Shown here one piece after another: positions 15,247-16,044 of a stretch of 64,000 bases of DNA. Each line of letters opens with the position of its first letter. The stretch's first letter is position 1. Made by a program: the position numbers and the translations under genes. The notes under the pieces are model-generated. The model was given only the letters and a program-made list of their open reading frames with translations. It made no database searches and was not told where the DNA came from. The stretch spans positions 2,976,001 through 3,040,000 of the forward strand of contig JAEUWY010000004.1 of NCBI GenBank assembly GCA_022059125.1, written 5' to 3'. Source of the DNA: Corynespora cassiicola. Lineage: Eukaryota > Ascomycota > Dothideomycetes > Pleosporales > Corynesporascaceae.

Positions 15247-15877
15247 CGCATCTCCCTGTAAGTCGGCGATTAGAGTCGTAGTGGCATTGTTTAACAGTCG
15301 ACAGGGTGACTTTAGAACAAGTTCCATGGATCAGCGTCGTGAACACATGCAATAAATCACGGTGATATATAATTCAGCACGGAGCTCGGGCAGGGCGGGA
15401 GTGGATCGGTGCAACATGGGAGGAAGATGTTCTGATGAGCTTTGAAAAGTAAGATTGCGGGAGAGACGCCAGAGTTGAAGACTTCGGCACTTAGGTACTG
15501 GACTAATAAGTCTCGAGACCAATTCTAGCCATCGCATCACACCTCATGTTGTCTGTCAATTCACTGTAGAGCGGCAGTAAACTAGCATGAATAGTAAAAA
15601 GCCTCAGGTGTATGGGAAGTGCATGGTGCGTATAGATCACTAAAGCTTTCTGCGCCGACAAAGTGCACCGGATCGCGATGGGACGAAAACCAAACCTGCG
15701 ACTCCAGGGTCCGTGCGCGTGGGGAAAAAACCACAGCAGGTTGGGCTGGCACTCGCATGGAAAAATTTTGCAGCACTAGGTGGGCACCGAGCAACTGTTT
15801 CGCAACTTACAAGGTCACAGACAGCTATGGCGATAATATTCATTTTGTGCATCTTCCTTTCATCAAACAAGCAACAA
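15247..15877. other. Intergenic upstream of the tRNA gene
   Basis: I see no gene here. Short open frames on both strands overlap and lack features. Confidence 0.4.
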
Positions 15878-15914
15878 GCCTGGTTAGCTCAATCGGTAGA
15901 GCGTGAGACTCTTA

Positions 15915-15928
15915 CAACCTAAGAGGTC
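15915..15928 (+). other. Canonical pre-tRNA intron
   Basis: Fourteen bases between tRNA positions 37 and 38. The AAGAG inside it complements the CTCTT around the anticodon, giving the usual anticodon-intron helix recognised by the tRNA splicing endonuclease. Confidence 0.8.
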
Positions 15929-15944
15929 ATCTCAAGGCTGCGGG

Positions 15945-15998
15945 GTACGATTCTCTCCTCCTCCAACATTATAACTTATTCTAACATTCAATTAACAG
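15945..15998 (+). other. Spliceosomal-like 54-nt insertion in the tRNA T arm
   Basis: The insertion starts GTACGA, ends TTAACAG and holds TTCTAACA (about 15978-15985) 14-20 nt before the AG. These are the donor, acceptor and branch-site features of introns in protein genes in this same window. It is not at a known tRNA-endonuclease site. Excision restores an unbroken T stem-loop. The 5' junction reads GGTACGATTCT and the 3' junction reads AGTTCGAGCCC; each is within one or two bases of a B-box consensus. Confidence 0.65.
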
Positions 15999-16036
15999 TT
16001 CGAGCCCCGCATCGGGCTTCCTTTCAAGAGGCATTC

Positions 16037-16044
16037 TTTTTTTT
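16037..16044 (+). terminator. RNA polymerase III T-run
   Basis: Eight T residues begin 19 bases after the tRNA 3' end, with a second run of seven at 16048-16054. These are typical Pol III terminators on the coding strand and support transcription of the tRNA gene. Confidence 0.6.

Follow-up and report, generated by a model that had tools for sequence, protein, structure and literature searches.

The 54-nt insert in the T arm of a tRNA-Lys(CTT) gene in this window is, with a probability of about 0.9, a U2-type spliceosomal intron in a functional nuclear tRNA gene transcribed by RNA polymerase III (Pol III). Sequence comparison places it among at least 12 putative introns that interrupt tRNA-Lys(CTT), tRNA-His(GTG) and tRNA-Ile(AAT) genes at position 53/54. 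We infer that these introns are removed by the spliceosome. The component parts, a spliceosomal intron and a tRNA gene, are both of known kinds. Their combination appears to be new.

The interrupted tRNA-Lys(CTT) gene of the window

The window is the whole 64-kb stretch of DNA that was analysed (C4:2976001-3040000), in a genome of 44,353,003 bases on 23 contigs. The features of the interrupted gene are listed below with the evidence for each. All are on the + strand.

15861..15866, +, CATCAA element directly 5' of tRNA-Lys(CTT), also before many other tRNA genes here (flank comparison)
15878..15914, +, tRNA-Lys(CTT) exon 1: acceptor 5' strand, D arm and 5' part of the anticodon arm (sequence; same in other Lys copies)
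15915..15928, +, 14-nt canonical anticodon-loop intron at 37/38, whose TAAGAG can pair with exon CTCTTA (pairing test)
15929..15944, +, tRNA-Lys(CTT) exon 2, with the T-stem 5' strand GCGGG at its 3' end (sequence, T-stem pairing)
15945..15998, +, putative 54-nt GT-AG intron at tRNA position 53/54 (sequence, copy comparison, shuffles)
15945..15950, +, 5' splice site GTACGA (intron comparison)
15981..15985, +, branch-site motif CTAAC, predicted branch A at 15984 (motif pattern, intron comparison)
15997..16007, +, 3' splice site AG running into AGTTCGAGCCC, which we take to be B-box-like (sequence)
15999..16018, +, tRNA-Lys(CTT) exon 3: T loop TTCGAGC, T-stem 3' strand CCCGC, acceptor 3' strand and discriminator (sequence, T-stem pairing)
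16037..16044, +, T8 run, probable Pol III terminator; its TTCTTTTTTTG context is common among the tRNA genes of this genome (flank comparison)

The gene spans 15878-16018. Its two interruptions, the 14-nt intron in the anticodon loop and the 54-nt GT-AG insert at 53/54, had been reported in the preliminary description and are confirmed by the sequence coordinates. The insert reads GTACGA...TTCTAACA...AACAG. This agrees with its earlier description as starting with GTACGA, ending with AACAG and carrying a short motif about 17 nt upstream of that end; the predicted branch A lies 14 nt before the 3' splice site. The claim that clean excision leaves a perfect T stem and a 73-nt tRNA also stands. 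The three exons total 73 nt, the T stem GCGGG/CCCGC forms 5/5 pairs across the insert, and ARAGORN calls a tRNA-Lys(CTT) when the 54 nt are removed. In the 64-kb window as it stands, no tRNA is reported by ARAGORN or by Rfam at gathering cut-offs.

The A box, which we assign to about 15885-15896, lies inside exon 1. At the end of the insert, the AG of the 3' splice site presumably takes the place of the usual B-box GG, giving AGTTCRANNCC. A single match in the window has a 5-bp T stem enclosing GTRNG..CTRAC..AG and then TTCRA, and 100 mononucleotide shuffles of the 64 kb contain none. The window also encodes a NOB1 protein, with 100% identity over 91% of the query to Corynespora cassiicola Philippines, and a neighbouring WD40 protein, with 99% identity over 97%. 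By these matches, the DNA comes from C. cassiicola (Pleosporales, Dothideomycetes) or a very near relative.

Copies, flanks and conservation across the genome

In the genome, site 53/54 is interrupted in 6 of 7 clear tRNA-Lys(CTT) genes, 3 of 3 tRNA-His(GTG) genes and 3 of 5 tRNA-Ile(AAT) genes found, 12 genes in all; these counts are lower bounds, and the assembly may be incomplete. The interrupted Lys copies were recovered by DNA searches with the window gene and its intron-free paralogue and lie on C4, C23, C20 and C6, the last with three copies. Homology to the window copy brought up five of the six Lys copies; the His and Ile genes first came up through a motif. The uninterrupted Lys paralogue (C4:4367346-4367432) has a precise empty site, in which GCGGG is followed directly by TTCGA.

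The DNA search for tRNA-His(GTG) yields three genes, every one interrupted, and the 71-nt joined tRNA-His used as a query finds the same three only. A pattern combining the His anticodon loop with the T loop has 88 matches (control 88). Five of these have intron-free spacing and were read, and none is a tRNA; the other 83 are spaced for an anticodon intron or extra length. The five tRNA-Ile(AAT) genes divide into three interrupted and two uninterrupted copies.

Two of these loci are tandem pairs. At C6:1322950-1323236 (L004, L006), two tRNA-Lys(CTT) genes, both with T-arm introns, are separated by a 17-nt spacer. At C20:1493937-1494199 (L093), an intron-free tRNA-Ile is followed after a 30-nt spacer by a tRNA-Ile with a T-arm intron. 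Both pairs may be dicistronic.

Pattern searches of the genome return the same genes. The pattern of a branch motif shortly upstream of AG-TTCRANNC has 11 matches (reversed control 13), all of them tRNAs with T-arm introns (5 Lys, 3 His and 3 Ile). A wider branch-motif pattern has 37 matches (control 62), made up of the 12 known genes and 25 non-tRNAs. When the branch motif is not demanded, GGGT...AG-TTCRANNCC has 61 matches (control 98), including all 12 genes, and the other 49 matches, at 47 places, yield no tRNA on joining. ARAGORN, run on all GGT...AG-TTCRA joins in the 25 and 49 extra matches (48 and 101 joins), calls no further tRNA, and the same procedure recovers all 12 genes. These patterns require G52-C62 and G53-C61, and T-arm introns of other kinds could escape them. 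Exact tRNA patterns, one for Lys and one for His, each have 0 matches in the non-fungal collections of IMG/VR and GTDB genomes.

The interrupted genes have the flanks of ordinary tRNA genes. A T7-8 run lies within 70 nt downstream of 11 of the 12; downstream of the twelfth, Lys_C6c, the next tRNA starts after 17 nt. ATCAA is found within 30 nt upstream in 9 of 12, and two of the three genes without it are the second genes of tandem pairs. Among 51 other tRNA genes checked, 26 are followed by a TCT6-9G terminator. T4 runs are absent from all 12 introns, which is weakly unusual since the same holds in 10% of shuffles, and this absence is consistent with Pol III transcription. The Pol III signals comprise a terminator T run downstream and none internally.

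The five tRNA-Leu(AAG) genes (L025:677-775(-), L071, L072, L073 and L074) have a conserved hairpin trailer directly downstream. It consists of CGTCCG, a stem-loop and CGGGTTTCGGGA (CGGGTATCGGGA in L072) before the T run. Its inner stem varies in sequence with pairing preserved.

Exons and intron interiors have diverged to very different degrees. The six interrupted Lys genes are 99-100% identical in their exons and 50-90% in their intron interiors. The three His genes have 100% identical exons and intron interiors of 74-92% identity. For the three interrupted Ile genes, the values are 92-97% (anticodon intron included) and 66-72%. The Lys intron interiors align little above shuffles, 0.11-0.28 of which reach the score in the three of 15 pairs tested. 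The splice signals are kept despite this divergence. In 11 of 12 genes, the T stem is fully paired (5/5) across the intron; Ile_C6 has one mismatch (4/5). In tRNA-Ile, the T stem is ATGGG/CCCAT in the intron-free genes versus GTGGG/CCCGC in two intron-bearing copies. The two kinds of gene therefore differ on both T-stem strands together, despite the intervening intron. ARAGORN assigns the correct isotype to 12/12 joined forms and to 0/12 unspliced forms.

It is highly unlikely that the interrupted copies are decayed and non-functional, with intact copies supplying the pool, as the preliminary description had allowed in naming a pseudogene as its alternative. Intact Lys and Ile genes are present in the genome, and an eighth Lys match (C1:1672212-1672301) is truly decayed, with altered exons and without the 3' exon or splice signals. 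The 12 interrupted genes, however, have intact and near-invariant exons around diverged interiors that keep their splice signals. They also have tRNA-like flanks with T-run terminators, and the insert is present in all three His genes found, with no intron-free tRNA-His among the genes recovered.

Splice signals and the route of excision

All 12 T-arm inserts have the marks of U2-type introns, namely GTRNG, CTRAC at a fungal distance from AG, and a length in the range of the host. Each starts with GTANG (GTACGA, GTACGT, GTATGA, GTAGGT or GTAAGC) and ends with AG, and lengths are 48-59 nt. The branch motif is CTAACA in 11 inserts and CTGACA in one, and its branch A precedes the end by 10-14 nt. 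GTRNG together with CTRAC at the right distance from AG is found in 12/12 inserts, compared with a mean of 0.016 and a maximum of 2 when the interiors are shuffled. In two introns (His_C5b and Ile_C6), an AG lies between the branch A and the 3' splice site.

Judged by these signals and by length, the T-arm inserts resemble the mRNA introns of the same genome. The comparison uses 14 tubulin introns, which we take as introns where the joined reading gives recognisable tubulin; one of the 14 is confirmed by a further check. They are 46-90 nt long (12 of them 46-59 nt), and the branch lies 9-17 nt from the end. They start with GTAAGT, GTACGT, GTAGGT, GTATGT, GTAAGC, GTACGC or GTGCGA, and GTACGT, GTAGGT and GTAAGC are shared with the T-arm inserts. 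Their branch motifs are CTAAC, CTGAC or CTAAT, in a control that is biased to consensus, the candidate scan having demanded GTRNG and YTRAY.

The T-arm inserts show no catalytic core of a group I or group II self-splicing intron, and the window has no Rfam match at gathering cut-offs. At 48-59 nt, they are too short for introns of these groups.

A second possibility is that the inserts are tRNA-type introns cut ectopically by the tRNA splicing endonuclease at a bulge-helix-bulge (BHB) motif, as in Cyanidioschyzon merolae and archaea. According to excerpts of the literature, position 53/54 also carries an intron in C. merolae tRNA-Ile(UAU), in its T arm, and in some archaeal tRNAs, several introns can occur per tRNA, and many excised introns of the Guillardia nucleomorph lack a defined BHB. 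Normal anticodon introns are present in the Lys and Ile genes here as well. Those excerpts ascribe the C. merolae and archaeal introns to BHB motifs and cutting by the tRNA endonuclease, whereas the T-arm introns of this genome have pairing at chance level and carry U2-type signals.

At the T-arm junctions, exon and intron form runs of at most 3-4 pairs, no better than shuffles in 12/12. The helix that a BHB needs, between the 5' exon end and the intron before the 3' splice site, therefore does not exceed chance in any of the 12, though relaxed forms are possible. Among the anticodon introns used as controls, the six Lys introns have 5-6 consecutive pairs, three clearly beyond shuffles (fraction <=0.01) and three not (0.15-0.27), and the three Ile introns do not stand out. 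With 3 of 9 canonical controls clearly beyond shuffles, the pairing test is only moderately powerful and its control partly sharp. In a fixed-geometry scan, the central helix has 4 pairs in each of the six Lys anticodon introns used as controls and 3 in each of the three Ile controls. At the T-arm junctions, it has 3 pairs in ten genes and 4, G-U included, in two (His_C5b and Ile_C6). A weightier point is that cutting by the endonuclease would not preserve GTANG, CTRACA and AG, which a BHB leaves unexplained in 12/12. Removal of the T-arm introns by the tRNA endonuclease is very unlikely, and the sequences suggest that it is probably not the route used.

Excision by another protein route, for instance hairpin-loop cleavage of the Ire1 type with subsequent joining by a tRNA ligase, is barely conceivable, and most conceivable for tRNA-His. 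The three His precursors are predicted to form a 9-pair exon-intron hairpin with the 5' splice site in a 3-nt loop. This pairing is identical in the three copies and so gains no support from covariation. No such hairpin is predicted in the Lys precursors, two of the three Ile precursors have a different predicted exon-intron pairing, and the spliceosomal signals are common to Lys, His and Ile introns despite the differing folds. In the His introns (L086, L088 and L089), the branch motif lies, by eye, in or beside a possible hairpin loop, with a GCGATA/TATCGC stem in two and a differing stem in the third.

The three intron families show no clear sign of a common origin in their sequences. In six of 45 between-family pairs, the fractions of shuffles reaching the alignment score are 0.044, 0.225, 0.227, 0.314, 0.427 and 0.951. 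Five of the six Lys introns start with GTACG after GGG, and four of these continue with GATTC or GAATC, near the B box sequence GGTTCGANTC. An origin by tandem duplication is not claimed, as the His and Ile introns lack the B-box-like start of the Lys introns.

Maturation, precedents and detection

The preferred reading, a spliceosomal intron in a functional tRNA gene, had been put forward in the preliminary description. It is supported by 12 genes from three isoacceptors, the kept signals, the tRNA-gene flanks and the empty Lys site, from which removal by the spliceosome may be deduced. In the proposed order of events, Pol III would make the precursor tRNA, and U1, U2 and U6 would recognise the primary transcript in the nucleus. 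The spliceosome would join G53 to U54 and restore the T arm. The T arm could fold only after this removal, and its restoration would let the tRNA fold, have its ends processed and receive its T-loop modification. Precursors that also have an anticodon intron would lose it in a separate step, through the tRNA splicing endonuclease and ligase. Early removal of the T-arm intron would matter here too, by analogy with C. merolae, in which excerpts of the literature report that Pus4 leaves U55 unmodified while a T-arm intron remains.

Under this scheme, the supply of tRNA-His would depend on the spliceosome. Because no intron-free tRNA-His gene was found, removal would be obligatory and essential for this tRNA. 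It need not be essential for the Lys and Ile isoacceptors, given that one Lys gene and two Ile genes lack the T-arm intron. It is fairly likely that all cytosolic tRNA-His and most tRNA-Lys(CTT) need the spliceosome before folding and that some precursors also need the tRNA endonuclease. Two unrelated machines would then act on one precursor, and the capacity of the spliceosome would bear directly on translation. Textbooks treat spliceosomal splicing and tRNA splicing as unconnected, and these would, to our knowledge, be the first nuclear tRNAs that need the spliceosome.

If real, the T-arm introns would test whether the spliceosome handles Pol III transcripts more widely. They also bear on the order of nuclear tRNA maturation and on the entry of introns into new hosts, three tRNA families having unrelated-looking introns at a shared site. 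The canonical intron at 37/38 is found in the same Lys and Ile genes and is 13-16 nt long, unlike the T-arm intron, which is 48-59 nt long and has other signals.

The earlier statement that no nuclear tRNA with a GT-AG intron in the T arm had been described agrees with the literature search. Excerpts of the open-licence literature on tRNA and small-RNA introns and on C. cassiicola genomes describe no nuclear tRNA with a spliceosomal intron. The excerpted C. cassiicola genome papers give 164 tRNAs by tRNAscan-SE in one case and 192 and 214 in another, with no mention of such introns, and excerpts of further fungal genome papers (PMC5023194, PMC7181583, PMC4792528) give tRNA counts only. For tRNAscan-SE 2.0, the excerpts describe a search for noncanonical introns for archaeal candidates. 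In the present genome, ARAGORN misses all 12 unspliced genes. The Rfam tRNA model places 2 of 6 Lys copies above the cut-off and no His or interrupted Ile gene, among the 63 of 1206 candidates that were scored; Phe, Tyr, Pro and Glu tRNAs, for example, are absent from the fetched loci. Other genomes may hide T-arm introns as seemingly missing tRNAs.

Among the closest known systems are introns of other small RNAs. Fungal U6 snRNA genes, for example that of Schizosaccharomyces pombe, contain mRNA-type introns reported to be removed by the spliceosome. Like the T-arm introns, these are short, are of GT-AG type and have a branch motif, and their host is a small structured Pol III RNA. In contrast, the hosts here are tRNAs, of three isoacceptors, interrupted at one homologous site. 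Fungal U3 snoRNA introns are likewise of mRNA type in a small structured non-coding RNA, but U3 is not a tRNA. According to the excerpted text of one paper, no small structured RNAs other than U3 and U6 had until then been known to carry introns often (PMC5832005). In this genome, none of the 9 U6 matches contains an intron, and the U6 precedent is not shown here. Six of these nine matches (L051-L059) have GTTCGA, which is B-box-like, within the 40 nt shown downstream.
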